From assembly GCF_900111995.1 (NCBI RefSeq), contig NZ_FOKF01000014.1, forward strand, positions 1 to 64,000: 64,000 nt of DNA, given 5' to 3'. This DNA is from Collimonas sp. OK607. Lineage in GTDB: Bacteria > Pseudomonadota > Gammaproteobacteria > Burkholderiales > Burkholderiaceae_D. This document shows, piece by piece, positions 2,691-33,623 of the stretch (within the stretch, counting starts at the first letter, position 1; each line of letters opens with the position of its first letter). The translations under genes were made by a program, and so were the position numbers. The notes under the pieces were generated by a model. The model was not told where the DNA came from, ran no database searches, and saw nothing but the letters and a program-made list of their open reading frames with translations.

Positions 2691-2899
2691 GACCTACTGA
2701 TCACGAATCAAACATTAAATTTCGAACCGGACGTCCAAATCACGAACCAGAGAAAGTAGATCGAATTCGTGTGAGTAACACCCATAGATCCGAACATCCA
2801 AAAGAAAAAAGCGCTTAATAATCAAACTAACCATTTGATTATTAAGCGCTTTTTTCTTGTTCTCCCAGATAACTATCTGAGCAGCTGACTCTTTGGCGG
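2691..2899. repeat. Copy 1 of the 209-bp tRNA-Ser flanking repeat
   Basis: This stretch matches 33330-33538 in the same orientation at roughly nine of ten bases, with no large gaps. It ends with TGGCGG, which in the other copy is the 3' end of the tRNA-Ser gene (read on the other strand). The match begins exactly at the edge of the IS66 element, so the repeat probably once extended further left. I interpret it as the end of an integrated unit, or as the duplicated flank of the tRNA attachment site. Confidence 0.85.
2805..2855 (-). terminator. Leftward rho-independent terminator (copy 1)
   Basis: GCGCTTAATAATCAAA and its complement are separated by 7 bases and flanked by A6 and T6 runs, so the hairpin can act in both directions. 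In the second copy (33444-33494) the third base pair of the stem is changed from G-C to C-G on both sides, a compensatory change that keeps the stem. Confidence 0.85.
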
Positions 2900-3114
2900 T
2901 GGATGCAGTCTTGTGCGAACCTGTCTACGCCCCCTATTCCCTGTAACAGGGAAAAATACAGCGAATTGACCGAATTTGTTCTGCTTTTGGTTGGGGGAAC
3001 TATGGACAAACCCGCGCCAGCGCTCGCGTTCCCGGCTAATTTAAGCAACTGATGGAATTACAGAACAGGGACCCAATAGGGAACGGGCAGGGAATTTTCA
3101 ATTCGCGTTCGCAG
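2894..3114. repeat. Copy 1 of the 221-bp att-like module
   Basis: Matches 13723-13943 along its whole length without gaps. It starts with TGGCGGTGGATGCAG, contains the perfect palindrome TTCCCTGTAACAGGGAA at 2937-2953, and ends in a run of spaced AGGGA(A) motifs (3061-3095). Read on the minus strand, the first part resembles the T-loop and acceptor stem of a tRNA 3' end (GGTTCG, later CCGCCA). I interpret it as an integrase attachment region with arm-type sites; there is no gene in it. The following 233 bp (3115-3347) hold nothing I recognise. Confidence 0.75.
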
Positions 3115-3347
3115 CTCGAGCGGATGACAGACGTGTCCGTGCTGCTGGGGGGAAGGCCATACATTCATTCCGGTTCAAGTTAAAATTGTAGACAGCGTCC
3201 GGGCCTAATCCATAGTGCTGCGCTCAATCAGTGACTCCTTCGGGGGTGTCGAGGAATCTCAACTTTAAGCCCCCCTCTCCCGAGAAAAGGCGTCCACCAT
3301 TACTCCGCATAGGCCTCATATTTCAACAGCCCGTCGCTGACTACAGC

Positions 3348-4751
3348 TCAATTTGATACTTCCGTGATAGCCCGTTTAAATAATGCCAACGCCAACAAAC
3401 GCTGCGTTGCATGATCGACAATAGGCGCAGGATATTCAGTAGTTAACCCGCTTATTGTTTTATCCAGCCATGGCGCATAAATGGCTTTATTACTCAATTG
3501 AGCAAGTTCCGGGCAATAACGGCGAATAAATTTACCCTCAGGGTCAAAACGTTCCGATTGCGTCACCGGATTAAAAATTCTGAAATATGGCTGTGCGTCG
3601 CAACCGGTCGAAGCAGCCCATTGCCAGCCGCCGTTATTTGAGGCCAGATCAAAATCCATCAGCTTTTCAGCGAAATATCGTTCTCCCCAGCGCCAATCAA
3701 TCAACAAGTCTTTGACTAAAAAACTGGCGGCAATCATGCGCAAACGATTATGCATATAGCCTGTTTGATTAAGCTGACGCATCGCAGCATCGACAATCGG
3801 AAAACCTGTACGGCCTTGGCACCATGCAGCAAAATACGCCGGATTATTGGGGAAAACAATGGTGTTATATGACGGTTTAAATACCTGCGTTACCACTTCT
3901 GGCCGATGCCAGAGAATTTGCTGATAAAAATCGCGCCAGATCAATTCAGATAACCAGGTCTGGGCGCCAATACCTCCCGTATGCCATGCCACACGTGCCA
4001 GTTCCCGGATGGATACCGTGCCAAAACGCAGGTGCACAGACAAATACGAAACCCCTTTGATGGCGGGGAAATCTCTGGCCTGATGGTATTGTCCGATGCG
4101 CTGGCAAAAATCTTCAAACAACATCTCGCCGCCTTGCATCCCCGGTTTATACAAATCGACATTGCAATCTTCAAAACCCAGCTCGGATAATGGCGGTAGC
4201 TCAGGTTCAGTCAATCTGGCCAGATTATTCAGATACGGTAAAACCGGATAAGAGCGCAAATAAAAATCGTCCACTTTGGCCAGCCATACGCGCTTATAGG
4301 GCGTAAACACGCTGTACATACCCTGCGCCTGCGTCAGGATCTCGTCTTTTTCAAAAATGACCTGATCTTTATAGCTGTGAAACCCGATACCTTGCGCAGC
4401 TAATTGTTGTGCGACGCCAGCATCGCGGCAGATCGCCTCCGGTTCATAGTCATTATTGGCATAAACGGCAGCGGCTCTGTATTGTTGTGCTAAAGCGGGA
4501 ATTTCACGACAAGGATCGCCATACCTAACCAATAAATCTGAGCCTTGCTCGCGCAGACTAGTTTTTAATTGCTGCAAGCTGTGCCAGATAAATGCCAGAC
4601 GAGGATCTCGTTTGGGTAAGGTTTGCAAGATAGTGGAATCAAAAATGAATACAGCGATAACACGTTGTGAGTTTCTCAGCGCTTTATGTAAAGCAGCATG
4701 GTCAAACAATCGTAAATCGCGACGAAACCAAACTATTGCAGTGGCAGACAT
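3348..4751 (-). CDS. phrB: Deoxyribodipyrimidine photo-lyase (CPD photolyase)
   Basis: This enzyme repairs UV-induced cyclobutane pyrimidine dimers using blue light, FADH- and an antenna cofactor. The 467-aa product starts with the photolyase motif IVWFRRDLRLFDHAAL and has an antenna-binding N-terminal domain (to about 165). The FAD/DNA-binding C-terminal domain follows, with GRTGFPIVDAAMRQL, GYMHNRLRM and NNGGWQWAAS. Length fits class I enzymes. I chose the ATG at 4751 because the upstream extension starts at TTG and precedes the conserved domain. The gene is visibly richer in A+T than the gentisate genes next to it, suggesting a separate origin. The LysR gene upstream is in the same direction, 44 bp away. 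Confidence 0.95.
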   Translation of the reverse strand: MSATAIVWFRRDLRLFDHAALHKALRNSQRVIAVFIFDSTILQTLPKRDPRLAFIWHSLQQLKTSLREQGSDLLVRYGDPCREIPALAQQYRAAAVYANNDYEPEAICRDAGVAQQLAAQGIGFHSYKDQVIFEKDEILTQAQGMYSVFTPYKRVWLAKVDDFYLRSYPVLPYLNNLARLTEPELPPLSELGFEDCNVDLYKPGMQGGEMLFEDFCQRIGQYHQARDFPAIKGVSYLSVHLRFGTVSIRELARVAWHTGGIGAQTWLSELIWRDFYQQILWHRPEVVTQVFKPSYNTIVFPNNPAYFAAWCQGRTGFPIVDAAMRQLNQTGYMHNRLRMIAASFLVKDLLIDWRWGERYFAEKLMDFDLASNNGGWQWAASTGCDAQPYFRIFNPVTQSERFDPEGKFIRRYCPELAQLSNKAIYAPWLDKTISGLTTEYPAPIVDHATQRLLALALFKRAITEVSN

Positions 4752-4795
4752 TGGCTTTAAAAAGGAAGAAATGTTACAACCGGCTAGCAAGCCAA

Positions 4796-5710
4796 TTATG
4801 CATCTGTTTTGGCGATACGTTCAGAAAATAGTTGCGCCATCACTTGGCGCAGCCAGCGGTTCGACGCATCCGCGTGATAGCGCTCGTGCCAATGCTGCTT
4901 GACCGAGAAACTGGGCAGCTTGACCGGCACCGGCAGCATGCGGATATGTTCGCGTCCTGCCATCACCGCGCCATAGCGATGCGGCACGATGGCAATCATC
5001 TCGGTCTCGGCGACGATGCGCGCTACGCCGAGGAAACTCGGCAGTTGGAGTACGACGTTGCGCTGCACTGCTTCTTGCGCGAGCACCTTGTCGACGATGG
5101 CATGGCCGGTGCCGGAGGTGCGCACCACCACATGCGCCTCGCGCTGAAGTGCCTCAAGCCGCAGAGTCTTACCTATGCGCGGATGGTCGGCCGACACCAG
5201 GCAGGTGAAATGTTGGTTGAACAGGGTCTGCTGGTAGAAGCCCGCCTCTAGGTGCGGCATGAAGCCGACCGCCAGATCGACCGTGCCATCGGCCAGTTCG
5301 GCCGGGCTGTCCGGTGAAATTTTCGAAACGTCGAGGCGAATGCCCGGCCCCACTTCCCTCAGATGATTCAGCAACTGCGGCAACAGCACCACTTCGCTGA
5401 TGTCCGTCATGCAGATGCGGAACTCACGCTGGCTGTCGGCCGGTTCGAACACCGGTTGTTCGGCCAACGCATGCTGCAGGGCCTGAATTGAGCGTCGCAC
5501 ATCGGCGATAGCGTTCTGCGCGCGCGGTGTAGGCTCCATGCCCTTGGCTGTGCGGCTGAACAGGCGGTCGTTGAAATGTTCGCGCAACTTGGCCAGTCCG
5601 ATGCTGACCGTCGATTGGGGCAGGCCGAGGTTGTCGGCTGCGCGCGTCACGTTACGAGTCTTGTAGATCTCGTCGAATACCAACAGCAGTTCGAGGTCAA
5701 AACGGGCCAT
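4796..5710 (-). CDS. LysR-family regulator of the gentisate cluster
   Basis: The product (about 304 aa) has an N-terminal winged helix-turn-helix (residues 4-62, with RNVTRAADNLGLPQSTVSIGLAKLR) and a C-terminal effector-binding domain of the LysR type. It is transcribed divergently from the gentisate operon that starts at 5824, the usual arrangement for a LysR activator of an aromatic pathway. An 18-bp palindrome lies between them (5742-5759). It resembles NagR/NahR-type regulators in its DLELLLVFDEIYKTRNVTRA start; the inducer is probably an aromatic acid, which is inference. The ATG at 5710 was preferred over an in-frame ATG five codons upstream. Confidence 0.85.
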   Translation of the reverse strand: MARFDLELLLVFDEIYKTRNVTRAADNLGLPQSTVSIGLAKLREHFNDRLFSRTAKGMEPTPRAQNAIADVRRSIQALQHALAEQPVFEPADSQREFRICMTDISEVVLLPQLLNHLREVGPGIRLDVSKISPDSPAELADGTVDLAVGFMPHLEAGFYQQTLFNQHFTCLVSADHPRIGKTLRLEALQREAHVVVRTSGTGHAIVDKVLAQEAVQRNVVLQLPSFLGVARIVAETEMIAIVPHRYGAVMAGREHIRMLPVPVKLPSFSVKQHWHERYHADASNRWLRQVMAQLFSERIAKTDA

Positions 5711-5741
5711 GATTTCACCCACCATTATTTAAAAACATGAT

Positions 5742-5759
5742 TATAACAATCAAGTTATA
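5742..5759. promoter_or_regulatory. Candidate LysR operator in the divergent promoter
   Basis: TATAAC AATCAA GTTATA is a perfect 6+6-bp inverted repeat with a 6-bp spacer, placed midway between the two divergent start codons (5710 and 5824). LysR regulators bind interrupted palindromes of this type. The surrounding gap is A+T rich. Confidence 0.45.
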
Positions 5760-5823
5760 TCCATTTCCTAAATAACTTAAAAAGCGCAGAGTGATGCCAT
5801 TCACAAGACGTATGGAGACCATC

Positions 5824-7053
5824 ATGAAATCTGATAACACTGAAATTCCGTCCATCCTGATTGCCGGTGGCGGTATCGGCGGCATGGCGGCAGCACTGTC
5901 ACTGGCGCGCCTTGGCATACAGGTAACAGTGCTGGAACAAGCCGCCGTCATGGGCGAGATCGGCGCCGGCATCCAACTTGGGCCTAACGCCTTCGCCGCG
6001 CTGGACGCGCTGGGCGTAGGCGCCGCCGTGCGCGATCGCGCCGTGTTCACGGAGCGTCTGGTGATGATGGATGCGGTGGATGCGACCGAAGTCGGTACCT
6101 TCGAAGTCGGCGAGCCGTTCCGCCAGCGCTTCGGCAATCCCTATGCGGTTATCCACCGCGCTGACATCCACGCCGCCATCCTGGAACAGGTACGGAAAAC
6201 CCCGCAGGTCGAACTGATCACTTCTTGCCACATCGACAGCGTCAGGCAGGATGCTACCGGCGTCACCGTGACCGATCACCAGGGCCGCACCTTCCGCGCC
6301 GGCTACCTGATCGGCTGCGATGGCGTCAAGTCGGTGGTGCGCCAGCACGTGGTCGGTGACGACGTCCGTGTCTCCGGCCATGTGGTGTACCGTGCCGTAG
6401 TGCCAGCCGAACGCATGCCGATGCCGCTGCGCATGAACGCACCGGTGGTGTGGGTCGGTCCCGACTGCCACCTGGTGCACTACCCGCTGCGCGGTGGCGA
6501 ACAATACAATCTGGTGGTCACCTTCCACAGCCGCGATGCGGAAGTATGGGATGTACGCGACGGCAGCAAGGAAGAGGTACTGTCCTACTTCACCGGCATC
6601 GACGCGCTGCCACGCCAGCTGCTGGAGACGCCGGACAACTGGCGCCGATGGAGCACCGCTGACCGCGAGCCGGTTGGCAACTGGACCGCCCGCCGCATCA
6701 CGCTGCTGGGCGACGCCGCCCACCCGATGCTGCAGTACCTGGCGCAGGGCGCCTGCATGGCGCTGGAAGACGCAGTGACGCTGGGCGAAGCGATCAGTCA
6801 CTGCAACTACGACATGACGGCCGCCTTCGCACTGTACCAGCAATCGCGCATCGCCCGCACCGCCCGTGTGGTGCTGTCGGCGCGCGAAATGGGCCGTCTG
6901 TACCACGCGTCTGGCGTCGAACGCCTGGTGCGCAACGATCTTTGGAAGGGGCGCGATGCCAACGGCTTCTACAACGCCCTGCAATGGCTGTACGGCTGGA
7001 CCGCCGCCACCTGCCTGGCCACCGTCACCGACAAGGAGCAGCAGCATGCATAA
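5824..7053 (+). CDS. nagX: FAD-dependent 3-hydroxybenzoate 6-hydroxylase
   Basis: A 409-aa flavoprotein monooxygenase that most likely converts 3-hydroxybenzoate to gentisate with NADH and O2. Visible motifs are the N-terminal FAD site [18 protein letters not shown] (about 12-30), the [10 protein letters not shown] segment (DG motif, about 160) and the second FAD motif [17 protein letters not shown] (about 290). The family includes salicylate hydroxylases, but the gentisate dioxygenase, fumarylpyruvate hydrolase and maleylpyruvate isomerase that follow point to 3-hydroxybenzoate. The ATG at 5824 has GGAGACC upstream; the frame opens earlier at 5791. Its last 8 bases overlap the next gene. Confidence 0.85.
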
Positions 7054-8095
7054 CGATCTGATCGTCGCCCGCCAGTCCCTTTACGACGACATGCAACAGC
7101 TACACCTGGCGCCGCTGTGGGCCTCGCTGCACACGCTGGTGCCGAAAGAACCGACGCCACCGTATGTGCCGGCCCTGTGGCGCTACGAAGATATCCTGCC
7201 GCACCTGCGCCGCGCCGGGGAACTGATCTCGGCCGAAGAAGCCGTGCGCCGCGTGCTCGTGCTGGAAAATCCCGCACTGCCCGGCCGGGCCTCGATCACG
7301 CAATCACTGTATGCCGGACTGCAGCTGATCCTGCCGGGCGAAGTCGCTCCGGCGCACCGCCATACGCAAGCCGCGCTACGCTTCATCGTGAGCGGCAGGG
7401 GCGCCTACACGGCCGTCGACGGCGAACGCACTACCATGCATCCGGGCGACTTCATCATCACCCCATCCTGGACCTGGCACGACCATGGCAATCTCGGCAT
7501 CGACGGCCACACGGAACCGGTGGTCTGGCTCGACGGCCTCGATATTCCGATGCTGCGCTTCTTCGACGCCGGCTTTGCCGAAAACGGTGAGGAAACAATC
7601 CAGCATGTGGCGCGCCCGGAAGGCCAGAGCTATGCCGCCTACGGCAACAACATGGCACCCGTAAAACAGCTGCATGCGACACCCAGTTCGCCGGTGTTCA
7701 ATTATCCGTACACCCGCACCCGCGAGGCACTGGAAACCTTGCGCCGCACCCAGGCGGTCGATGCCTGGCACGGCGTCATGCTTCGCTACATCAACCCGTT
7801 GACCGGCGGCTCACCAATGCCGACCATCGGTGCCTGCATGCAGCTGCTGCCGAAAGGCTTCCGAGGTCAGCGCCACCGCAGCACCGACGGCACCGTCTAC
7901 AACGTGGTCGAGGGCAGCGGCAGTGTAACCATAGCGAACACCCGCTTCAGCTTTGCGCCGCACGACACCTTCGTGGTGCCTTCGTGGGCCACCGTCGCTT
8001 TCGATGCGCCCGAGGACGTGGTGTTGTTCAGCTTTTCCGATCGACCGGTGCAGCAAGCCATGGGCGTGCTGCGCGAAGCCTTCCTACCCGATTAA
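7046..8095 (+). CDS. gtdA: Gentisate 1,2-dioxygenase
   Basis: This Fe(II)-dependent bicupin opens the ring of gentisate to give maleylpyruvate. The 349-aa product has an N-terminal cupin with the metal motif [17 protein letters not shown] (His ligands near 105-107) and later SWTWHDHG, and a degenerate C-terminal cupin (about 270-345). The start ATG overlaps the stop of the hydroxylase gene (ATGCATAA), with AAGGAG just upstream, so the two are translationally coupled. It is the defining gene of the operon. Length and motif spacing fit the family. Confidence 0.93.
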
Positions 8096-8121
8096 ACCTC
8101 TCATCACATCAAGAGCACATC

Positions 8122-8832
8122 ATGACCGCCAATTTCATTTTCCCCCCGCAAGCCATCGTCGGCCTGCCCGTCAACGGTACGGACGCCACCTTCCCGGTAC
8201 GCCGCATCTACTGCGTCGGCCGCAACTACGCGGCGCACGCCCGCGAAATGGGTTTCGACCCGGATCGCGAACCGCCGTTCTTCTTCTGCAAACCGAACGA
8301 TGCCGCCTCGGTGGTACCGGTGCCCGCCGATGCTACGGCGCAACTGCCATACCCGGCCAGCACCGAGAACTACCATCATGAGATTGAGTTGGTAGTCGCC
8401 ATCGGCAAGGGCGGCAAAAACATTGCACCAGAGGAGGCGGCAGCTCACATCTTCGGTTACGCCGTCGGCCTGGACATGACGCGCCGCGACCTGCAGATGC
8501 GCATGCGCGAACAAGGCCGGCCATGGGAGATAGGCAAGGCCTTCGATTATTCGGCGCCCGTCGGCCCGCTGACTCGTCTGGCCGACAGCGGCGAATTGCG
8601 TAGCGGCGCCATCGAGCTGAAAGTCGATGACAAAACCACCCAGCGCAGCGACCTCACGCACCTGATCTGGTCCGTCAGCGAAACCATCGCCCAGCTGTCG
8701 ACGCTGTTCGAACTGCAGCCGGGTGACCTGATCATGACCGGCACACCCGAAGGCGTCGGCCCGGTGGTGCGCGGCCAAACCATGGTCGCGCACATCGCCG
8801 GCCTGACGCCGATGACAGTCAAGATGGTCTGA
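8122..8832 (+). CDS. nagK: Fumarylpyruvate hydrolase (FAH family)
   Basis: Splits fumarylpyruvate to fumarate and pyruvate, the last step of the glutathione-dependent gentisate route. The 236-aa product has the FAH-family fold, with IYCVGRNYAAHAREMG near residue 30, the metal-binding acidic residues around YHHEIELVVAIG (about 90), and the C-terminal MTGTPEGVGPV loop. The start ATG at 8122 is 26 bp after the dioxygenase stop. Related family members act on acylpyruvates in general; the assignment rests on the neighbouring isomerase and dioxygenase. Confidence 0.9.
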   Translation: MTANFIFPPQAIVGLPVNGTDATFPVRRIYCVGRNYAAHAREMGFDPDREPPFFFCKPNDAASVVPVPADATAQLPYPASTENYHHEIELVVAIGKGGKNIAPEEAAAHIFGYAVGLDMTRRDLQMRMREQGRPWEIGKAFDYSAPVGPLTRLADSGELRSGAIELKVDDKTTQRSDLTHLIWSVSETIAQLSTLFELQPGDLIMTGTPEGVGPVVRGQTMVAHIAGLTPMTVKMV

Positions 8833-8914
8833 TACCTCGTTGCGGCCAGCCAGCAGGCCACAGAAGCCTGCGGCGATCGCATCCGACAACGCCACAACCA
8901 CAACGCACGGAGAC

Positions 8915-10285
8915 ATGATGCCTACATCACCCACTATGGATGTCCAGCAGTTCATCGACAGCCATCCCTTTTCCCGCTTCCAGAAACAGCTGCTGGTACT
9001 GTGTTTTCTGGTAGTCGCCATCGATGGGTTCGACACAGCATCGATCGGTTTCATCGCCCCGGCGCTGCGCGCCGAATGGCACCTGACGGCAGCCAGCCTG
9101 GCGCCGCTGTTTGGCATCGGCCTGTTCGGCCTGATGTCCGGCGCGCTGCTGCTCGGCCCATTGGCGGACCGCTATGGCCGCAAGCCGGTGCTACTGCTAT
9201 CGGTTGGCTTCTTCGCCGTCGCCAGCCTGCTATCGGCCTTCGCCACCGGCCTGCCGATGCTGCTGGCGCTGCGTTTCCTCACCGGTCTGGGGCTGGGCGG
9301 CGCGATGCCGAGCGCAATCACACTGACTTCCGAATACTGCCCGCAGCCACGCCGCGCCAGTCTGGTGACGCTGATGTTCTGCGGCTTCACGCTAGGCTCT
9401 GCGTTCGGCGGCCTGATCGCCGCGCAGCTTCTGGCATCGATAGGCTGGCGTGGCGTGCTGCTGATCGGCGGCGCCTTACCCCTGTTGCTGCTACCGGTAC
9501 TGTGGATGGCGCTGCCAGAATCGTTGCGCTGGATGGTGATGCGCGGTCGCGGCGCCGTCGCTATCGCAGCCCTGGCCTCACGGATCGAAACACGATCCGG
9601 ACATGCTCTGCCACAACTGGTGGTCAGCGATCGCAAGCTACCCGGTTCCCCGGTGGCGCAGCTGTTCCGTCCCGGCCTGCTGGGCGGCACGCTGCTGTTA
9701 TGGAGCACCTTCTTTATGAGTCTCCTGATTATCTACCTGCTCTCCAGCTGGCTACCGACGTTGCTCAGTGGCGCGGGCCACAGCCTGTCGCAGGCGTCCT
9801 TCATCAGCTCCGCGTTTCAGATCGGCGGCACCGCCGGCGCCATCCTGCTGGGCCGCTGGATGGACCGCTACCGTCCCCAACGCGTGCTGGCGATCGCCTA
9901 CCTGGCGGCAGCCGTGTGCATCGTGGCTGTCGGGCTGTCGACCGATAACGTCCCTTTGCTGGTGCTGGCCGTGTTCGGCGTTGGTTTCGGTGTTAGCGGT
10001 TCGCAGGTCGGCGCCAACGCGCTGGCTGCCGCCTTCTATCCGACCGCCAATCGCGCTACTGGCGTCAGCTGGGCCTCAGCCGTCGGCCGCAGCGGCTCAG
10101 TGGTCGGTTCCATGGTCGGTGGCGCGCTGCTGGCTGCGCAACTGAGCAACCAGACCATTTTCCTGCTGCTGGCCATTCCCGCCGTGCTGGCCGCCTGCGC
10201 CCTGCTAGCAATGGGCCGGCTGCAAGACCGGGCGAAAACAGCCTTTGTCTCGTCTCCTACCGTCACTGAAAGCACCGCAACATGA
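8915..10285 (+). CDS. MFS aromatic acid:H+ symporter
   Basis: A 12-helix major facilitator of the AAHS subfamily (PcaK/BenK/MhbT type), about 456 aa. It has the family signature DGFDTASIGFIAPAL in helix 1 (about 35), the loop 2-3 motif GPLADRYGRKPVL (about 90), and a second LGRWMDRYRPQRVL in the central part. It probably imports 3-hydroxybenzoate or gentisate through the inner membrane, which is inference from context. The ATG at 8915 is followed by another ATG at 8918; CACGGAGAC lies just upstream. The stop overlaps the next gene start by four bases. Confidence 0.87.
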   Translation: MMPTSPTMDVQQFIDSHPFSRFQKQLLVLCFLVVAIDGFDTASIGFIAPALRAEWHLTAASLAPLFGIGLFGLMSGALLLGPLADRYGRKPVLLLSVGFFAVASLLSAFATGLPMLLALRFLTGLGLGGAMPSAITLTSEYCPQPRRASLVTLMFCGFTLGSAFGGLIAAQLLASIGWRGVLLIGGALPLLLLPVLWMALPESLRWMVMRGRGAVAIAALASRIETRSGHALPQLVVSDRKLPGSPVAQLFRPGLLGGTLLLWSTFFMSLLIIYLLSSWLPTLLSGAGHSLSQASFISSAFQIGGTAGAILLGRWMDRYRPQRVLAIAYLAAAVCIVAVGLSTDNVPLLVLAVFGVGFGVSGSQVGANALAAAFYPTANRATGVSWASAVGRSGSVVGSMVGGALLAAQLSNQTIFLLLAIPAVLAACALLAMGRLQDRAKTAFVSSPTVTESTAT

Positions 10286-10926: not shown

Positions 10927-10973
10927 CTTCACGCAGCACCATAAAATATAAAACATAAAACGGGGACTTCAAT

Positions 10974-25755: not shown

Positions 25756-26796
25756 ATGCGACTACGCCATATCGAAATATTCAGTGCCATCATGCAGACT
25801 GGCAGCACGATCGGCGCCGCGAAATTGCTCCACGTTACGCAGCCCGCGGTCAGCAAGACGTTGCGGCACGCTGAGCAGACAGTCGGCTTCGCTCTGTTCG
25901 TGCGCTCCAAAGGCAAACTGGTGCCGACCCCCGAAGCCTTGCTGTTGCAGCAGGAACTGCTACCGTTCGACGAGCAACTGGTCAAAATCCGGCGTCTGGC
26001 AGCCAATCTCGCTGGTGGCACTGCCACACCACTGCGTATTGCGGCCACTCCGGCCCTGGCGCATCATCTGGTGCCGCGCGCCGTGGCTTTGTGGACACGC
26101 GAATATCCCGGATCCATGTGCCAGTTGGCAGCGTCGCATACGCGTGAAATGCTGTATTCCTTGCTGCTCAACGAAGTCGATCTCGGCCTGACGATGCAAC
26201 CTATATCGCATCCCAACTTGATAACGACTGTGCTGCGAAATTGTGAAATCTATGCGATCGCGCCACCAGGCTGGTGGCCGAAAAATTCCTTGAATCGCCC
26301 GCTGCAACCGGAAGAACTCTCCGGTCAGCCTTTCATTTCCATAGACATCAAGGCTCACCTGGGTGCCGCAGTATCCTCCTGGCTCTCGGGGGTTTTCCCA
26401 CCACCGGAGGTCAAGGTGTCGGTCCAGACCTACACCCTGGCACGCGCGCTGGTAGAGGCCAACATTGGGATCGCCGTGGTGGACAGCTATACAGCCCGAG
26501 CTGCAGGATCCTCAGCGAGCGTGCTTCAAATGCGAAGAATCGAGCTTCCAGTGAACAGCTACGTGTATGCATTGACCAACCGCTCACGGCCATTCGCCAT
26601 ATTCGCCGCAAAAAAGCTTGTGTTCGGTGCGACGTTATTGTGCAAGGCAAGACCCCGAGCCGCCCGATTGAGCGGGGCATGGCAACGCCGGCAGTACTGT
26701 CACATATCGCGATCAGTAAATTCTGCCATCATCAACCGCTGTATCGCATCTCTGAAATCTGGGCTCGTGAGGGTGTTGACTACGACCGCTCTGTGA
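25756..26796 (+). CDS. LysR-family regulator with IS66-derived C-terminus
   Basis: Residues 1-280 are a LysR regulator: a winged helix ([36 protein letters not shown]) and an effector domain. Around 26590-26604 the reading frame leaves LysR sequence and enters an IS66 tnpC gene in the wrong frame, adding about 65 unrelated residues rich in Arg and Ala. Relatives end about 15-20 residues after this junction, so little of the effector domain is lost and the protein might still work. It is divergent from the MFS/deacylase pair (25582) and is its likely regulator. Confidence 0.7.
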
Positions 26797-27722
26797 TGGC
26801 GCGCCAGCTTGGCATGTGTTGCGCCCTGGTGCGGCCATTGGAAGATGCGCTGCACCGGTATGTGATGGCGGCGGATAAAATCCACGCGGACGACACGCCG
26901 ATTTCAGTATTGGCGCCGGGGACCGGTAAAACCAAAACGGGACGATTGTGGGTCTATGTCCGTGATGACCGTCGCTCGGGAGCGACTGCGCCGCCGGCAG
27001 TCTGGTTTGCTTACTCTGCGAATCGGCAAGGCCTGCATCCGCAATCGCATCTGGCCGACTTCAGTGGTGTTCTGCAAGCTGACGCTTACGCGGGATATGA
27101 CGCCATTTATAAAGAGGGTCGGATTCGAGAGTCCGCCTGCCTTGCTCACGCCAGAAGAAAAATTCACGATCTGCATGTCCAACGCGCTACACCGATGACG
27201 ACTGAGGCACTGCGTCGAATTGGAGAACTGTATGCGATTGAAGCCAGAATCCGAGGCCAGTCGCCCGAGCAGCGCAAACGCATCCGACAGGAGCGGGCTC
27301 GTCCATTGCTGGACAGCCTGGAGCGGTGGCTGCGCGACTGGCTCAGCACGCTCTCGTCACAGGTTGCTACCGCCAAGGCCATCAATTACGCTTTGAATCA
27401 TTGGCCGGCCTTGGTATATTACTGCGATGACGGCATCGCTGAAATAGACAACAATATTGCGGAAAATGCGTTGCGTAGCATTGCAATTGGCCGCAAAAAT
27501 TACCTCTTCGTTGGTGCCGATAGTGGTGGCGAGCGAGCTGCCACCATGTACGCATTGATTGGCACATGCAAGCTCAACGGCATCAATCCAGAAGCATATT
27601 TAACCTACGTGTTCACGCATATTGCCGATCATCCTGTCAATCGCATCGAGGAACTTCTACCGTGGTACGTCGCAGAAAAACTTCCCCAATTACCGCTACC
27701 AGGCCAGATATCCGCCATCTAA
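26589..27722 (+). pseudogene. IS66 transposase TnpC, N-terminally truncated
   Basis: About 377 codons homologous to residues 155 onward of the TnpC at 860-2446. It runs from [15 protein letters not shown] through [15 protein letters not shown] and [12 protein letters not shown] to [16 protein letters not shown]. The coiled coil and first zinc-binding part are gone, because the frame upstream is LysR antisense-free sequence in another frame. The catalytic part looks intact but has no proper start. Base composition and divergence from the first copy argue against a recent duplication. Confidence 0.85.
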
Positions 27723-27766
27723 CGGTGAACGCATTCACTGCTGGGGTACCGACGACACTTCTTGGG

Positions 27767-28006
27767 ATGGCCGCATTTATCGACGGCGGTGGTGGCTTCT
27801 CGGTCGCCCCGGTTCCCTCGTATGGCGTCATTGCCACGGCTCACATAAAAGATTCAACGATCGCCATGCTCAAGCAGAAATCCGGCGAAACCTTACTCGA
27901 ACTGCTCGATCGCCTGGAGCACGCCATCATCGAAGCTATCGCTACCGGCTATGTCGTTGACGACGTCAACGTGACGACAACATCGCAAAGCACCGTTTCA
28001 AAATAG
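27767..28006 (+). CDS. Small ORF inside the IS66 right end (79 aa)
   Basis: Located between tnpC and the right inverted repeat, so it travelled with the element. The product begins MAAFIDGGGGFSVAPVPSY and has an amphipathic helical middle (SGETLLELLDRLEHAIIEAI). No family is recognised. The frame is open further upstream into the tnpC end, with a possible GTG at 27724; no ribosome site is obvious. The complete element at 1-2690 has no equivalent ORF. Coding status is uncertain. Confidence 0.4.
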   Translation: MAAFIDGGGGFSVAPVPSYGVIATAHIKDSTIAMLKQKSGETLLELLDRLEHAIIEAIATGYVVDDVNVTTTSQSTVSK

Positions 28007-28017
28007 CAAAATCTGTC

Positions 28018-28042
28018 AAGACGTCGCTATGGTCACGCTTAC
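28018..28042 (-). repeat. Right inverted repeat of the second IS66 element
   Basis: On the minus strand it begins GTAAGCGTGACCATAGCGAC and continues with CGTCTTGAC, matching the left end of the first element at most positions. The following 8 bp (GAACTACA) would be a target-site duplication whose partner has been lost. Confidence 0.75.
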
Positions 28043-28208
28043 GAACTACATACTGTTCGATAGCAGTAGTGACGAAGAACGAGGCTGGGCTGATTGGAAG
28101 CCAAAGTTTGACGTTCAAATTGCCAGCTCGGACGTGGCCGTGTTCAAGATCAATGCGGTGTCATACGAGATGATTCCAGAGGCGCACATTTTCGACTGGG
28201 CCAGCTGA
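28043..28208 (+). pseudogene. C-terminal fragment of an interrupted gene
   Basis: An open frame of about 55 codons runs out of the IS66 end to a stop at 28208 (DSSSDEERGWADWKPKFDV, ending EAHIFDWAS). An ATG at 28029 lies inside the inverted repeat and would give 59 aa, so the frame is more likely the tail of a gene into which the element inserted. Family unknown. Confidence 0.3.
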
Positions 28209-28570
28209 ACTCGACGCATAATTCCCCGATTTGGACTGCTAATCTACCCACGATCCGGCTGCGCCGGCACTAGTTGCGTGCATTACACCCCAGTGCCCGG
28301 GAGGTCGAAAATAAATGGATCGCCTGCCTCCAAAGAGATTCTCTCAAATATTTTAACTAGGAAAGTCCCACTCAATTACCAATTGCACCCAAAAACCCGG
28401 CATTTTTAACAAATTTAACGAAGCCATTTTATAAATACCATGAAAAATCCCATGTCGAGAAATATCGACAATTGGCATGCCTAACAAGGGCAGTCTATTG
28501 CGGATACAATAAGGCAACATTCTATAGAACCATTGCCAGCGATGTTGATTTGCTAAAAAGGCGACGCCAG
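28209..28570. other. Gene-free A+T-rich gap
   Basis: No recognisable gene. It precedes the defence-like gene group; the frame of the AbiJ-like gene is open back to a TTG at 28472, so part of this stretch could belong to it. Confidence 0.4.
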
Positions 28571-29557
28571 ATGCAGTTCAAACAACGCAGTCTTATGCAA
28601 CTCGCCGACATGATTTGCGGTAACTTCTCTGAGTCGGAGAGCTTTTTTCTTTACAGAAGCAGCATTCGTATCACCGAGTTTTTCCAGGATTGCGATACCG
28701 ACTATTCGCATGACGGTTCTACTCGAAACTACTGGGTTGCAGAAACTCTCAAGACAATTCTCACGGAGCCTCAGAACAGCGCAAACACTCCTCCTGACAC
28801 TTTTGCGCGGGTAATTGTGACACTCATGGACCAGGGAGATGCCTTACACGAAGGCTCAGATAGATCTGGCGCGCTCTCAATATTAAATGCAACTCTTGCA
28901 CGCGAAGGATTCGAAGCATTCTATGGAACAGACAAGCATTGCCATCTTCGCCATATCGCGACAAATACGATAGCGATTGCTGCTAACCCACACCGTCCAT
29001 TCTCAGCAGCAGAGCTAAAGAGACGAGATAGGTTAAACACCTATCTTGATAGTAGCTCAGAGGATACTCTTATTGCAGAAGTGCTCCTTCCCCTTTTTCG
29101 CCAGTTAGGATTCCATCGCGTTACTGCCGCGGGTCACGAAGATAAAGCATTGGAATACGGCAAAGATATATGGATGAAATATACTCTTCCAACCCGGCAT
29201 CTCTTGTATTTCGGCATCCAGGTAAAAAAGGGGAAACTTGATTCAGCCGGTGTCACAAAAGGTTCAAACTCGAATGTAGCCGAGATCCACAATCAAGTCA
29301 CCATGATGCTTGGACATGAAATATTCGATCCTGAGATTGGGAAGCGAGTTCTCGTAGATCATGCATTCATTGTTGCTGGCGGCGAGATCACAAAGGCTGC
29401 ACGTAATTGGATTGGCAACAAACTAGATGCAACCAAGCGCAGCCAAATTATGTTTATGGACCGTGAGGACATTTTAAATCTATTCGTTGTAACTAACATC
29501 CCTTTGCCAGCGGCAGCTCTGTCGACGTTAAAGGACGACGATGACATCCCATTTTAA
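28571..29557 (+). CDS. AbiJ-like N-terminal domain / PD-(D/E)XK nuclease-like protein
   Basis: A 328-aa protein of probable two-domain build. The N-terminal part (YRSSIRITEFFQDC then HDGSTRNYWVAETL, about 25-65) recalls the AbiJ N-terminal domain 3 found in abortive-infection proteins. The C-terminal part (about 180-320) starts EDTLIAEVLLPLFRQLGF and has GKDIWM followed by LLYFGIQVKKGKLD, compatible with an Mrr-like restriction-nuclease core (D...QxK). Both domain calls are from motif memory. The ATG at 28571 was chosen with AAGGCGA upstream; a longer TTG-started form is possible. Only 12 bp separate it from the DUF2971 gene. Confidence 0.6.
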   Translation: MQFKQRSLMQLADMICGNFSESESFFLYRSSIRITEFFQDCDTDYSHDGSTRNYWVAETLKTILTEPQNSANTPPDTFARVIVTLMDQGDALHEGSDRSGALSILNATLAREGFEAFYGTDKHCHLRHIATNTIAIAANPHRPFSAAELKRRDRLNTYLDSSSEDTLIAEVLLPLFRQLGFHRVTAAGHEDKALEYGKDIWMKYTLPTRHLLYFGIQVKKGKLDSAGVTKGSNSNVAEIHNQVTMMLGHEIFDPEIGKRVLVDHAFIVAGGEITKAARNWIGNKLDATKRSQIMFMDREDILNLFVVTNIPLPAAALSTLKDDDDIPF

Positions 29558-29569
29558 CAACGCTAATCA

Positions 29570-29974
29570 ATGCCAACCACCCCATACAACGCAGATTCTC
29601 CCGACATGCTGCTGTTTGAGCACACGCAAAAGATGGCTCAGCAGTTTTTCGAACGACAGGCAAAAGCAAATTCTGACCTAAAGGCTCTGTATCACTATAC
29701 ATCTGCGGAAGGTCTACAGTCCATACTCAAGGGCCGCTCGTTCTGGGCTAGTGACATCAGCTACCTCAACGATTCATCCGAGCTTGCATACGGCACCGAG
29801 CTTTTTAACGAGCGTTTGGCTGCTCTCGTAGAATCACGAAAATGTAATTATGTTGGGCAATTTGTGAAGTACTTAAGTGAAGCAATTGGCCCTTTCTTTC
29901 GAGAGCGATTTCGCACCTATATTGTATGTTTCTGTTCGAATGGGGACCAGTTGAGTCAGTGGCGGGGTTACTAG
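29570..29974 (+). CDS. DUF2971-type protein, C-terminally truncated
   Basis: The 134-aa product contains the start of a DUF2971 domain: LYHYTSAEGLQSILKGRSFW and ASDISYLNDSSEL (about 40-70), then IVCFCSNGDQLSQWRGY at the very end. In relatives the QWRGY motif is followed by a further 100 or more residues, so the gene stops at a premature TAG and is probably non-functional. DUF2971 proteins recur in defence regions, but their activity is not established. It is closely linked to the AbiJ-like gene. Confidence 0.6.
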   Translation: MPTTPYNADSPDMLLFEHTQKMAQQFFERQAKANSDLKALYHYTSAEGLQSILKGRSFWASDISYLNDSSELAYGTELFNERLAALVESRKCNYVGQFVKYLSEAIGPFFRERFRTYIVCFCSNGDQLSQWRGY

Positions 29975-30054
29975 TGGGCACGTTTCGCTTCCCTGTCCGA
30001 ACGTAATATTGCTGCTTCCTCTGATAGATCCATTTTAAAGAATCGAGCATTGAT

Positions 30055-30849
30055 ATGGCAGCATATGGCAAGATCACCCTTAGAAACTATCGTTGTTTTG
30101 GCTGGAATAATCCAGCGATTCTCGAATTTGGGGATGGTTTCACCGCTTATGTAGGACCGAATAACGTCGGAAAATCCTCTGCAATTCGCGCTATTTTTGA
30201 ATTGAGAGGTATATTGGGTAATGTCATATCTACTCTGGTTAATAATAATGGCAACCGAAGCTCTGAACAGCCAGCAGGTGTGTCCGACATTGCAGAAGTT
30301 GTAAATGACAAAAATCCAGAGAAATTTGAAATCAAGATAGAGATTGAGCCGCCTATTCGTGTGGGCTCAACTTCATACGCGGTCGAAATTACCATCGAGT
30401 TCGAATATACGACCCGAACCTTCAATGCAATTGGATTTCAATTTATTAATTCAAGCGGTCAAATAGTAGTAGTTGCAAGTACTCAGATGTCAGCTATTTC
30501 TTTGGTCAATGCTGGCTCGCATGTGGTGGCCTATCAAGGCACTCAAATTGATTGTTCATCTCTTTATTTTTTTGCCAGTGATTTGGCAAAATCAAAGTAT
30601 TTCCCTGCATTTAGAAATGCAATAAATGAGGGCGGCGGGCAATACTACGATTTAGCGGTAGGAACCGCACTTGTGCAAACTTGGGACTCCTGGAAGGCCG
30701 GAACTAACAGAGCTCAAAAGGTCGCCATCGGTAAGGTCGAAAAGCAGATCGCTGATTTATTAGGATTTGGTTCACTTCAAATTAATGCTGATCAAACCGG
30801 TAAGACGCTGGACGTAATTATCGATCAACTGAGAACTACTTTGAAATAA
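30055..30849 (+). CDS. AAA-family ATPase, N-terminal part only
   Basis: 264 aa beginning ITLRNYRCFGWNNPAILEF, the RecF/OLD-type start, with a Walker A motif GPNNVGKSS (about 34-42). Signature and Walker B motifs expected later in such proteins are not visible, and the length is about half of usual. A stop at 30849 is followed in another frame by a 60-codon stretch (30837-31019). Related ATPases act with nucleases in phage defence. It follows the AbiJ-like and DUF2971 genes in the same direction after an 80-bp gap. Confidence 0.6.
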   Translation: MAAYGKITLRNYRCFGWNNPAILEFGDGFTAYVGPNNVGKSSAIRAIFELRGILGNVISTLVNNNGNRSSEQPAGVSDIAEVVNDKNPEKFEIKIEIEPPIRVGSTSYAVEITIEFEYTTRTFNAIGFQFINSSGQIVVVASTQMSAISLVNAGSHVVAYQGTQIDCSSLYFFASDLAKSKYFPAFRNAINEGGGQYYDLAVGTALVQTWDSWKAGTNRAQKVAIGKVEKQIADLLGFGSLQINADQTGKTLDVIIDQLRTTLK

Positions 30850-31019
30850 ATGGCATTAGAGCTGCTTTGGGCGGCGAATACCAACCTTTGGAACCTTACC
30901 AACTACTGAGGGACAGTCTGAGGCCGTGGAAAAAAGCCGATAATTGGCGAATTGCGCGAGAAACCTCCATCGACGATATTAAGGACACGGATCTAGGGCG
31001 ATTTTTTCTGTCGCTTTAA
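30837..31019 (+). pseudogene. C-terminal fragment, out of frame with the ATPase
   Basis: The frame starting YFEINGIRAALGGEYQPLEP and ending DTDLGRFFLSL looks like a genuine protein tail. It overlaps the end of the ATPase frame, which suggests that an internal deletion joined the first part of a gene to the end of the same or another gene. Family not recognised. Confidence 0.35.
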
Positions 31020-31150
31020 TTAGGCTAGATATTTTCAACGACACGGAGCAAGACGGCTCAGCGCATTTTCTGTTCGCAGCGCGGTAGGTATGGCGGCGCT
31101 CTGCATGTTCCGTACCGCGTTATGACAATGATTCCGCGAACAGCACGGCT

Positions 31151-31597
31151 TCATTCCGCTTTTAGAATCTTCCCGTTCTCGGAAATCACGCCGTTTTCGA
31201 AAATGTATTTCACCTTCCTACCTTTCTCATCTTTCATGCGTAGCATGATTCTGGCACCACTTTGAATTACTTGTGGACCATCATCGCAAGTACCAAACGA
31301 TGGCGATATTTTTACATCAGATTTGCTCGCCACAGTGACAAAGAAATTCAACTGGCAAGTTGCGCTGACTCCATCCGCCACGAGCACAACATCCTTATCA
31401 TTCAAAACGAATTTATTCTTAAACGACATCCCCATTGAATCTGTTTCAGTGGTCAGTTTTTTCCGATCTAAAAATAAGCTCACATTACCTGCATCACCTG
31501 TGATCGAGAGTTTTCCTGCCCGCGTTGTTAGCGTCGTTTGATCGTCTGCAAACGCACTTGCACACAAGAGGCTGCCGCCAAGCCCATGCTTTGTCAA
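31151..31597 (-). CDS. Putative periplasmic protein, start unclear
   Basis: The 148-aa frame has the end of a signal peptide (GGSLLCASAFADD) and then a small beta-rich domain with two cysteines (CQLNFF and GTCDDG). The only starts are TTG codons and the signal peptide lacks its usual basic start and full hydrophobic core. The 5' end was therefore probably lost. A 10-bp inverted repeat (GTCAACCAAC, 31593-31602 and 31628-31637) sits at this point. No family is recognised. It is alone in its direction. Confidence 0.45.
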   Translation of the reverse strand: MTKHGLGGSLLCASAFADDQTTLTTRAGKLSITGDAGNVSLFLDRKKLTTETDSMGMSFKNKFVLNDKDVVLVADGVSATCQLNFFVTVASKSDVKISPSFGTCDDGPQVIQSGARIMLRMKDEKGRKVKYIFENGVISENGKILKAE

Positions 31598-31733
31598 CCA
31601 ACATGATGCGCCGCATTGCGCTGAGCTGTTGGTTGACTCAGCCTCTGTAGCGTCGAGGTTTGGCTGATGACCAATTGATTAATTCGGCTGGCCGTGTCAA
31701 CGATCAGTTGTTTGTTCTTTGCAGGAGGTTCCA

Positions 31734-31886
31734 ATGGGTATTCGATTTCTCAAGATCGCAGTAATCTATCTATTAATCGGCGCGTTACTTGGCGGCTATA
31801 TGGGGGCGGCCGAAAATTTTGCTTTGGCTCCAGTCCATGCGCATCTCGCTTTGCTAGGCTGGGCTTCCGTACGTAGAAGGTTCTGA
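31734..31886 (+). pseudogene. Membrane protein N-terminal fragment
   Basis: AGGAGG at 31723 precedes an ATG and 50 codons. The product (MGIRFLKIAVIYLLIGALLG, then VHAHLALLGWAS) resembles the start of a heme-copper-oxidase-like membrane protein with a HAH...LLGW motif. After GWAS the sequence switches to the antisense of another gene fragment. It is truncated to one and a half helices. Confidence 0.55.
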
Positions 31887-31933
31887 ATTACCAGACGACC
31901 GAGCTGCCCTGTGGCTCCTGTAACAACTATCAT
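31862..31933 (-). pseudogene. NmrA-type NAD(P)-binding oxidoreductase N-terminal fragment
   Basis: From an ATG at 31933 the minus strand reads MIVVTGATGQLGRLVIQNLL, the typical Rossmann start of NmrA/QorB-like proteins, then joins the membrane-protein fragment at about 31862. The gene was divergent from the HxlR regulator at 32023, the usual qorB-qorR arrangement. Only 24 codons remain. Confidence 0.6.
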
Positions 31934-32022
31934 GACAAATTCCTTGGTTTGGTTGAGTAAGGCACTTACAATAAGGCATTACCTTACTTTCCGTAAGTAC
32001 GCACCGAAAGGTTAGTGTAGAG

Positions 32023-32442
32023 ATGGCAACGCAAACCAAACTGATCGCATCTGAGTCCTTTTCCGAACAAGTCCGACGCCAGGGACTCCCATCAACTGAA
32101 TGCCCATGTCGTGAGATGCTTAAAGACGTCACGAGTCCTTGGGGCATACTGCTGCTTATCGTGCTGATGGGCGAAGTTCGACGTTTCAGCGAGCTGCGCA
32201 GAATGGTCGGCGGCGTGAGCGAAAAAATGTTATCGCAAACCTTGAAGCGCCTGGAAGCACACGGGTTGGTTCATCGGAAGTCTTATGGGACTGTACCGCC
32301 CCACGTGGAATATTCCCTGACTCCACGGGGAAGAATTCTGGGCGAGAGAGTTGAAGCGTTGGCCGATTGCATCGATACCATGCTTCCCGACAGTTTAGAT
32401 GCACGGCGTTCACCCCCCTTCGCCCAAACACGCCTATCCTGA
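32023..32442 (+). CDS. HxlR-family transcriptional regulator
   Basis: A 139-aa winged-helix regulator. CPCREMLKDVTSPWGILLL (about 27-45) begins the HxlR domain, with RRFSELRRMVGGVSEKMLSQTLKRLEAHGLV (about 53-83) as the recognition helices and a wing with VPPHVEYSLT. The cysteines near the domain start are common in QorR-like redox or electrophile sensors. It probably controlled the divergent oxidoreductase of which only a fragment survives (31862-31933). Confidence 0.85.
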   Translation: MATQTKLIASESFSEQVRRQGLPSTECPCREMLKDVTSPWGILLLIVLMGEVRRFSELRRMVGGVSEKMLSQTLKRLEAHGLVHRKSYGTVPPHVEYSLTPRGRILGERVEALADCIDTMLPDSLDARRSPPFAQTRLS

Positions 32443-32451
32443 TCTTGCAAG

Positions 32452-32524
32452 CACCGATGATTCTGTTGCCCGAGTTTTGCTACGTGACTGATGGTGCAAA
32501 ATTCGGGCAACAGAATCATCGGTG
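32452..32524. repeat. 29-bp inverted repeat with 15-bp loop
   Basis: The left arm (32452-32480) starts CACCGATGATTCTGTTGCCC; the right arm (32496-32524) is its reverse complement with a single G/A-type change. It lies just after the HxlR stop. It is too long for an ordinary terminator and has no T tract; it may be the joined ends of a lost mobile element. Confidence 0.7.
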
Positions 32525-32613
32525 AATTGCTTTGTAGATTTGCGCATCGGATTGACCCATTTTTGTGGCTGGCGATGATCCAGCAAGGTGGCTGATAATA
32601 CGCGCGGCAAACG

Positions 32614-32976
32614 GTGCCTTCAGTGAAATCATGGGGCAACGCAGTTTGCAAAAATGGGGCAAATGAAGATGCAATTCCGCAGCGTGCCGAAGGCGGCAGG
32701 CGTTCTCCTGCATTTGGTGACTATCGGCCACAGTTTTACTACGATGGACATGATTGGGATGCAAGACACATTTACCCTGATGTCAAACAAGCCAATCCCG
32801 GAGATACCGTCAGAGCTTTTTTGGGGTTCCTGAGTCCGGCAGAACACCTTGGGAAGATTTATCCCGATATGACGTTCGAAATTCGAGAGGGCGCACGAAC
32901 CGTAGGTAGAGGAAGAGTGACTCGAATTATTGAGCTAGAAGAGTCCGCAATTCGTTCTAATCAAAAGAACCCGTGA
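32614..32976 (+). CDS. EF-Tu domain-3-like small protein, 5' end doubtful
   Basis: From about residue 25 the frame reads EGGRRSPAFGDYRPQFYYDG, then GDTVRAFLGFLSP and EIREGARTVGRGRVTRI, which resembles the C-terminal beta-barrel of elongation factor Tu found in stand-alone small proteins. The GTG start and first 25 residues look spurious. In a neighbouring frame an ATG at 32654 gives MGQMKMQFRS, which would join this domain by a one-base shift near 32686. Either the start was lost or a frameshift occurred. Function unknown. Confidence 0.5.
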   Translation: MPSVKSWGNAVCKNGANEDAIPQRAEGGRRSPAFGDYRPQFYYDGHDWDARHIYPDVKQANPGDTVRAFLGFLSPAEHLGKIYPDMTFEIREGARTVGRGRVTRIIELEESAIRSNQKNP

Positions 32977-33329
32977 CGTCCGATATTAATGTCCGCTTCG
33001 GAGAAAACCAATAGACCGCTTAGGGTCGGGTCCGGTCTCTCAAAATTTAGAAACCGGCCATTCAAGAAAGTAACGCCAAAGTATTTGTCGTTTGAATCGC
33101 CGAACGACGGCTATGCGAAGTGGAGCCGCTGCTCAGAATTGCATCTGAGGACAGCCAATACCGTCGACACTAGTAACAGCGTTATGGAAAATCATTGTCC
33201 GCAACCGCTGCATTGCAGACGCTCATGGACTTCTACTGGAACACTGGGGAATTGGCTAACATCGGTCAGTGTTGATAGACCCGGCCCGACCAGCACGGTG
33301 GTCAATTCGTAGCAGCGCCTGCGACTGGT
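32977..33329. other. Decayed region before the tRNA-Ser repeat
   Basis: An open frame of about 107 codons exists (32989-33312), but its content shows no domain and looks random. No repeat or RNA gene recognised. Confidence 0.4.
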
Positions 33330-33538
33330 GACTTACTGATCACGAATCAAACATTAAATTTTGAACCGGACGTCCAAATCGCGAACCAGAGAAAGTAGAT
33401 CGAATTTGTATTGATACCCCCCATAGATCCGAGCATTCAAAAGAAAAAAGCCCTTAATAATCAAATTAACCATTTGATTATTAAGGGCTTTTTTCTTGCT
33501 ATCCCAGATAACTATCTAAGCAGCTGACTCTTTGGCGG
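33330..33538. repeat. Copy 2 of the 209-bp tRNA-Ser flanking repeat
   Basis: Same orientation as 2691-2899. The last six bases (TGGCGG) are the 3' end of tRNA-Ser read on the opposite strand. Differences are scattered substitutions, clustered mainly around 33407-33420. Confidence 0.85.
33444..33494 (-). terminator. tRNA-Ser terminator
   Basis: GCCCTTAATAATCAAA pairs with TTTGATTATTAAGGGC across 7 bases and is flanked by A6 and T6 runs. It lies about 40 bp beyond the tRNA 3' end on the minus strand. Its paralogue at 2805-2855 differs by a compensatory base-pair change. Confidence 0.88.
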
Positions 33539-33623
33539 AGAGACGGGGATTCGAACCCCGGATAGGCTATGAACCTATACACGCTTTCCAGGCGTGCGAC
33601 TTCAACCACTCATCCATCTCTCC
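33533..33623 (-). tRNA. tRNA-Ser (GGA)
   Basis: On the minus strand the gene starts GGAGAGATGGATGAGTGG, has the anticodon GGA in CTGGAAAG, a long variable arm typical of serine tRNAs, the T-loop GGTTCGAATCC, and an encoded CCA end (CTCTCCGCCA). Length 91 nt. Its 3' end is the probable integration site of the genomic island to the left; the gene itself is intact. Confidence 0.95.

Follow-up and report, generated by a model that had tools for sequence, protein, structure and literature searches.

Stacked catabolic units without integrase genes at a tRNA-Ser gene of Collimonas sp. OK607, probably inserted through attachment ends of a serine recombinase system

The first 64 kb of contig NZ_FOKF01000014.1 (C39) of Collimonas sp. 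OK607 (G000, a genome of 5.37 Mb in 90 contigs), hereafter the window, contain a tRNA-Ser(GGA) gene that is abutted at its 3′ end by an array of catabolic gene units, whose boundaries are marked by direct repeats of two kinds (D1 and D2) and by the short core TGGCGG. Judged by the sequence comparisons described below, it is very probable that the array consists of stacked, integrase-less cargo units carrying at their ends half attachment sites that belong to the system of a large serine recombinase (LSR) and its DUF2924 partner, and that insertion took place at the CCA end of the tRNA-Ser gene. The array is laid out as follows, in window coordinates unless preceded by C83, a second contig of the same genome:

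1-2690, + strand: IS66-family element in the right end of unit C (transposase 860-2446, Pfam DDE_Tnp_IS66; contig edge at position 1)
2691-2893: D2 end of unit C, the part beyond IS66, with terminator hairpin 2807-2853
2894-2899: core TGGCGG between units C and A
2894-3117, + strand: D1 left end of unit A, with CAGGG/AGGGA motifs
2894-13722: unit A
13690-13713: terminator hairpin at the right end of unit A, not of D2 type and without a D2 match
13723-13946, + strand: core TGGCGG and D1 left end of unit B
13723-33532: unit B
33330-33538: D2 right end of unit B (terminator 33446-33492; core 33533-33538; homology to the unit C end from 33009)
33533-33623, - strand: tRNA-Ser(GGA), the target gene, ending in CCGCCA (TGGCGG on the + strand)
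C83:25629-33463: unit D
C83:33464 to window 2893: unit C, IS66 included

The D2 repeat (2691-2899 against 33330-33538) spans 209 nt at 91% identity and the D1 repeat (2894-3117 against 13723-13946) spans 224 nt at 88% identity, both far beyond chance (BLAST E-values within the own genome of 9e-81 and 1.5e-76, respectively). The initial annotation had put the latter at 221 bp starting on TGGCGG, which agrees well with our boundaries. The former is likewise real, but the 209-bp limit given for it is an artefact, since one copy is cut by the IS66 element at 1-2690 and the homology continues in C83 (C83:48076-48402 against window 33009-33338, 82%). A D1-type end, comprising the core TGGCGG and CAGGGAA motifs, is present in units A, B and C. 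The tRNA sequence common to positions 2894, 13723, C83:33464 and C83:25629 is TGGCGG only, with no longer tRNA fragment. The insertion point is the exact CCA end of the tRNA, and the terminator is provided by the element. Terminator-like hairpins lie to the left of each core, at 2807-2853 (core 2894), 13690-13713 (core 13723) and 33446-33492 (core 33533), as had been claimed; they are oriented both ways rather than leftward only, and the counts of 3, 2 and 4 sites compare with means of 0.6, 0.4 and 0.5 in shuffled sequence. A dispersed repeat upstream of D2 (33023-33221) has further copies in C34 of the same genome (two places), G007, G122 and G138.

The IS66-family element at the contig edge has the termini GTAAGCG...CGCTTAC, and its 8-bp target duplication, GACCTACT, is found directly before it on C83 and again at window 2691-2698. 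C83:48402-48496 is identical to window 1-95, which would place the start of C39 at the end of C83, and the two flanks of the element, once joined, match the uninterrupted end of unit B. The 95-base overlap is also present in contig C80, and the join, though strong, is for this reason one that we infer. A further D2/TGGCGG/D1 junction lies at C83:33344-33687, and collinearity of the far side of C83 with the Collimonas genomes G002 and G003 ends at 25622-25629, at the start of TGGCGG. The chromosomal edge of the island, beyond which homology to relatives is lost, is C83:25629. C83 therefore most likely continues the stack across IS66, giving at least four units (D, C, A, B) over ~56 kb between C83:25629 and the tRNA-Ser(GGA). 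These junctions support the earlier proposals of stepwise accretion at the tRNA 3′ end and of a further unit to the left; the empty-site comparison suggested for the sequence left of IS66 was misplaced, as that sequence is still island. A composite transposon or an IS66-driven duplication could be considered, given the two IS66-family copies in the stretch (860-2446 and 26274-27722). We regard it as extremely improbable: D2/D1 junctions occur without an insertion sequence in C83 and G055, which refutes it for the junctions seen, and the left-edge element must have come later because it interrupts D2 with a duplication of its own.

The broken integrase reported earlier could not be recovered. 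None of the 16 PF00589 matches in the genome lies on C39 or C83, searches with profiles built from LSRs and from four tyrosine integrases (--max, E<=1) gave no match in window 1-34000 or in C83 from 25.5 kb, with G002 sequences scored as positive controls, and none of the array proteins of units A-D scanned against Pfam falls in a tyrosine or serine integrase family. A tyrosine integrase as owner of the ends was also considered and rejected: PF00589 was searched over 16 genomes, together with the four integrases of the same tRNA site, and none is present in the array. LSR and DUF2924 genes are absent from units in the window and C83, unlike in the array of G002; the units thus share the ends of the DUF2924-LSR elements without being members of them. 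By array proteins and profile search, they have attachment ends and no recombinase, as in cis-mobilizable elements (CIMEs). At the place where loci with a tRNA beside the LSR have that gene, 178-306 bp from the tRNA, no LSR is present in units A-D, nor in G009, G138 and G055, which have D2-type ends. The OK607 genome does have at least one related LSR (C41, 47%), with no tRNA within ~1 kb. Elsewhere in the genome, C14:784-3190 carries three consecutive tyrosine recombinase genes on the same strand, the arrangement of recombinase-trio elements.

An element with such an end and a full integrase, which the initial annotation had suggested searching for, was found in the single-contig genome G647, although its D1 end is divergent. 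This intact 26.9-kb element (G647:C1:407961-434851) and the tRNA gene beside it have the following features:

407870-407960: tRNA-Ser(CGA)
408161-409891: LSR
409855-410232: DUF2924, 125 aa
410229-410810: DUF3489
434846-434851: far end CCGCCA, a 6-bp repeat, with the D1-like end inward

The D1-like end has CAGGG at +53 and +172, spaced as in the window, and the element carries restriction, methylase, UvrD and terminase-like genes. Part of its flank or of the tRNA was matched in 60 of the 61 genomes of its genus and, among the matches listed, those reaching the tRNA end at query 2961-2970, where 2961 is the last base of the tRNA. G566 has the native terminator immediately after CCA, and its far flank starts again after ~245 bp, as against 27.3 kb in G647, where the native terminator is located behind D1. 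Among ten relatives fetched, G566, G689, G729 and G732 have the far flank no more than 0.5 kb from the tRNA, showing the element to be absent; G731 has a 147-bp far-flank match only, and resumption was not found within 10-16 kb in G405, G622, G701, G704 and G722. A second tRNA 3′ fragment lies near in G732 and G731, and a degenerate one behind the G647 D1, pointing to older events at this site. In G701 (locus L277), positions 8764-9478, ~8 kb past tRNA-Ser, share 84% identity with the D1-adjacent stretch of the G647 element, which is perhaps a sign of a related element.

With the LSR of G002 as query, 110 LSR loci (L136-L245) were collected, comprising 80 viral loci (the best 80 of 180) and 30 from Burkholderiales, where 160 of 399 genomes gave some match, many among the matches listed being partial. 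A DUF2924-like gene lies just upstream of the LSR in 95 of the 110 loci (30/30 bacterial, 65/80 viral); DUF2924 was checked with Pfam in G002, L135 and G647. In thirteen loci the 700 bp following the LSR stop contain a D1-like CAGGGAA cluster, compared with 0 loci in each of ten shuffled sets and a single one among 410 upstream windows. Two of the loci collected, L185 and L228, are near copies of each other (98%). Inverted arms occur at several sites, for example AGACTGCG-TGGCGGAGCG-CGCAGTCT in L185. ARAGORN predicted 13 tRNA or tmRNA genes in the 663 kb of the 110 loci. Eleven of them are found downstream of the LSR, 178-306 bp from its stop codon, each with its 3′ end toward the LSR and each at a locus without a D1-like cluster, i.e. 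other than the 13:

tRNA-Ser: L137, L207, L219
tRNA-Gln: L172, L180, L209
tRNA-Met: L231, L243
tRNA-Phe: L149
tmRNA: L142, L165

The remaining two predictions are a tRNA-Ser far upstream in L203 and a 98-nt tRNA-Ala in L215 that is probably spurious. Pfam Resolvase and Recombinase domains were checked for eight of the eleven tRNA-adjacent LSRs. When only loci with at least 450 bp downstream are counted (n=84), 13 have the cluster and 8 a tRNA or tmRNA. L135 and the G647 element each have a terminase-like gene, and L135 additionally a ParB-like gene; some LSR elements may therefore be phages or satellites.

The core at the 13 D1-like sites is TGGCGG, the 3′ end of tRNA-Ser, in ten, and TGGCTG, the 3′ end of tRNA-Gln, in three (L195 included). 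On a tree of 72 LSRs, which omits the Phe and tmRNA loci, the three TGGCTG loci and the three tRNA-Gln LSRs fall in one 9-row clade (100/100), and 11 of the 12 TGGCGG rows are found with the three tRNA-Ser rows in the other half. The labels are jointly clustered, requiring seven changes, a number as low in none of 200 shuffles.

Among 294 genomes of the family, 8 gave matches to D1 itself at E<=0.001, a part of them short. A D1 pattern of ~30 fixed bases (TGGCGGTGG..G.AGTC plus GGGAAA..TACAGSGAAT) was found on 20 contigs of the genome collection, from several phyla (Acidobacteriaceae, Hyphomicrobiales, Lysobacterales, Polynucleobacter, Herminiimonas, Collimonas and others are named), and on one viral contig, where a 568-aa LSR ends ~220 bp from the core with DUF2924 adjoining. 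To the left of D1, one of seven genes scanned is an LSR (L129, ending 279 bp from the D1 core), and L121 has an LSR piece. To the right, at least 2 kb is present in 14 of the 20 contigs, and one gene was scanned in each of ten of these: no tyrosine or serine site-specific integrase was found, L112 and L121 gave transposase-type domains, and an all-against-all comparison revealed no common recombinase. This null result is uninformative, because the LSR occupies the opposite end in G647.

The same tRNA-Ser(GGA) is targeted by at least two unrelated tyrosine integrases (G002, G005, G008; L047, L050, L054). Ordinary tyrosine-integrase islands whose integrases have since been lost would account for an array here, and tyrosine integrases adjoin this gene in G002, G005 and G008, with tRNA fragments of 45-50 bp in G006 and G008. 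The window repeats, however, have only 6 bp in common with the tRNA, D1-type ends accompany LSRs in 13 loci and in G647, and the D1 motif, which occurs five times in 3 of 15 Collimonas genomes, is never within 20 kb of a PF00589 match; we consider this explanation improbable.

The closest relative found, G002, has the same genus placement as the window genome, and the D1 site on its contig C33 corresponds to the D1 match in contig NZ_FOQI01000017 of Collimonas sp. OK307. Its tRNA-Ser carries a mixed stack: D1 at 47658, then unit A cargo (window 4769-11984 against C33:48140-55355, 94% identical), the genes for DUF2924 and the LSR (92869-95131), a D2 at 101206 and, adjoining the tRNA, a unit with a tyrosine integrase. 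The best NCBIfam model for its LSR is CcrB, at 131.8 of 900 bits and far below the cut-off. The DNA past this LSR matches the start of D2 over 54 bp (87%). The left flank is syntenic in G000, G002, G003 and G013, ~56, 86, 5.4 and 17 kb from the tRNA, respectively; it lies on another contig or elsewhere in nine other Collimonas genomes and was not found in G001 and G010, and no empty site was found in Collimonas. The end of unit B has ~530 bp in common with unit C, split into two pieces, as well as 329 bp with G002 and 247 bp with G138, of another genus. This sharing fits an LSR-less shell that spread, later loss with cargo exchange being also possible.

Homologous recombination between D1 and D2 repeats could have assembled or shuffled the units after only one or two true insertions. 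The unit A cargo is 94% identical to that of G002 and the adjoining D1 only 85%, and a photolyase gene stands between D1 and this cargo in G000 but not in G002, both in favour of such shuffling. It presupposes, however, that at least one tandem pair of D1/D2 elements existed beforehand, and it leaves the exact abutment on the tRNA and the unlike right end of unit A unexplained. We hold shuffling to be the less plausible account, although a serious one.

Under repeated LSR-mediated insertion, attP would consist of the D2 end, TGGCGG and the D1 end, and attB of the native flank, TGGCGG and tRNA-Ser, the 6 bp being the final bases CCGCCA of the tRNA. Recombination would leave the tRNA whole, set D2 with its own terminator beside it, and displace the old terminator and flank behind D1. 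Repeated insertion would then give the order, oldest first, D, C, A, B. The ends, cores and terminators, the intact LSR element with D1 and the relatives without it are read directly from the sequences; the order, and the making of each insertion by an LSR of the G002/G647 family, we infer. In Collimonas the LSR may have acted in trans or later been lost, or cargo may have been exchanged between D1/D2 copies.

Several observations weigh against LSR-mediated insertion. Neither an LSR nor a remnant was found in the window or C83, which leaves its role there resting on homology of the ends; the link from D2 to an LSR in Collimonas amounts to 54 bp, and the G002 LSR element is not intact, as 6 kb separate it from the complete D2 with its core. 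Two ends depart from the pattern, the left one of unit D not being of D1 type and the right one of unit A not of D2 type; the G647 D1 is divergent and lacks the third CAGGG motif of the window, and the C83-C39 join runs through a repeat also found in C80. Among the LSR loci, the majority are metagenome contigs, and 63 of the 84 with at least 450 bp downstream have neither cluster nor tRNA there. On the tree, the split into a Gln half and a Ser half is weak (81/35, midpoint root), the three tRNA-Ser LSRs are ungrouped (no better than 500 of 500 shuffles), and the TGGCGG locus L210 falls in the Gln half. It is a tentative proposal, for which the odds seem to us slightly unfavourable, that a widespread DUF2924-LSR clade naturally targets the CCA ends of tRNA and tmRNA genes, and that LSR-less D1...D2 shells cross genera, are moved in trans and stack catabolic operons at tRNA-Ser.

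The claim that each unit carries a separate catabolic load agrees with the Pfam content of units A, B, C and D. Genes of units A and B are listed below (Pfam assignments unless noted):

Unit A
3348-4790, -: photolyase
4796-5725, -: LysR
5791-7053, +: 3-hydroxybenzoate 6-monooxygenase (NCBIfam PRK08163.1, 672 bits, cut-off 459)
6866-8095, +: gentisate 1,2-dioxygenase (NCBIfam TIGR02272, 530 bits, cut-off 442)
7984-8832, +: FAA hydrolase
8840-10285, +: MFS
10282-10926, +: GST-type, isomerase candidate
11288-11968, +: porin
Unit B
14402-16246, -: tannase/feruloyl esterase
16298-17956, -: acyl-CoA ligase
17953-18837, -: nitroreductase
18746-20143, -: MFS
20354-21118, -: SDR
21263-22372, -: AraC
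23044-24363, -: amidohydrolase
24347-25591, -: MFS
25732-26796, +: LysR
26274-27722, +: IS66
30055-30849, +: AAA ATPase
32023-32442, +: HxlR

By its predicted genes, the load of unit A is degradation of 3-hydroxybenzoate via gentisate, plus the photolyase and porin. Unit C encodes an amidohydrolase, a hydrolase, a porin, a dicarboxylate symporter and an MFS protein, and unit D an aspartase-type lyase, an asparaginase, an arginase and an amino-acid ABC transporter. A defence role for 30055-30849 was considered and rejected, the gene giving only weak ATPase-domain matches; upstream of it, 28472-29557 encodes a 361-aa protein with no Pfam, PADLOC or NCBIfam match. The open reading frame at 32614-32976 matches elongation factor Tu domain 3 only and is probably a fragment. 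Outside the array, a ZMP/ZTP riboswitch lies at 55741-55868 (- strand).

Stacking would explain how separate aromatic and amino-acid catabolic operons come to lie at one locus of a soil bacterium. The 3′ ends of tRNA genes are usually regarded as targets of tyrosine integrases, and island finders build on this view and on the presence of an integrase gene within the island. A family of serine integrases directed at tRNA ends, if real, would open an island class that such methods can miss and would offer many new integrase/attachment-site pairs with conserved natural targets; the role of DUF2924 would become testable, a directionality or accessory factor being our guess.

ICESt1-related elements use tyrosine integrases. 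Accretion of CIMEs and integrative and conjugative elements (ICEs) was reportedly described for ICESt1-related elements of Streptococcus thermophilus by Pavlovic et al. in 2004. In this CIME/ICE accretion, cited in PMC3146451, units bounded by att sites and devoid of recombination and transfer genes are likewise piled up at a single site. The islands sought by Islander and TIGER, as their method descriptions outline, are similar in that insertion into a tRNA gene leaves the gene whole and tandem arrays occur; both methods demand an integrase gene per island and would therefore miss LSR-less units (PMC4383910, PMC12424338).

Serine recombinases at tRNA genes are rare in print, though not unheard of; subscription journals and the TIGER tables lay outside our search and we claim no priority. 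The relevant sections of PMC10654092, PMC11357604 and PMC8637289 describe serine integrases at non-tRNA sites or no prophage at tRNA genes, those of PMC12424338 and PMC12884075 do not split tRNA sites by integrase type, those of PMC5704250 and PMC4701971 name no serine integrase at a tRNA, and the word 'tRNA' is absent from the text of PMC10083194. Single cases do exist, since the serine recombinase of Paracoccus phage vB_PamS_Pami6 is predicted to act at tRNA-Met, as in L231 and L243 (PMC6536676). In the account given there, compared by description only, it is the sole serine recombinase with a predicted site, and no DUF2924 or D1-like end is named; Pami6 was not among the 15 best phage matches of the L231 LSR. 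The LSR of Wolbachia phage WO is ~32% identical and has an adjoining DUF2924 gene, with no tRNA target stated in the part of PMC11376236 concerned with it.

The ssrA islands of Dehalococcoides, as portrayed in the main account of PMC3146451, are tandem islands downstream of a tmRNA gene with catabolic cargo and the CcrB-like serine recombinase DsiB, and include islands without an integration module that were suggested to be cis-mobilizable. They differ in having a tmRNA target, insertion in the T-loop, a 20-bp repeat and two serine recombinases, whereas the present family is associated with several tRNAs, CCA-end insertion, a core of 6 bp and CAGGGAA motifs in the D1 end.

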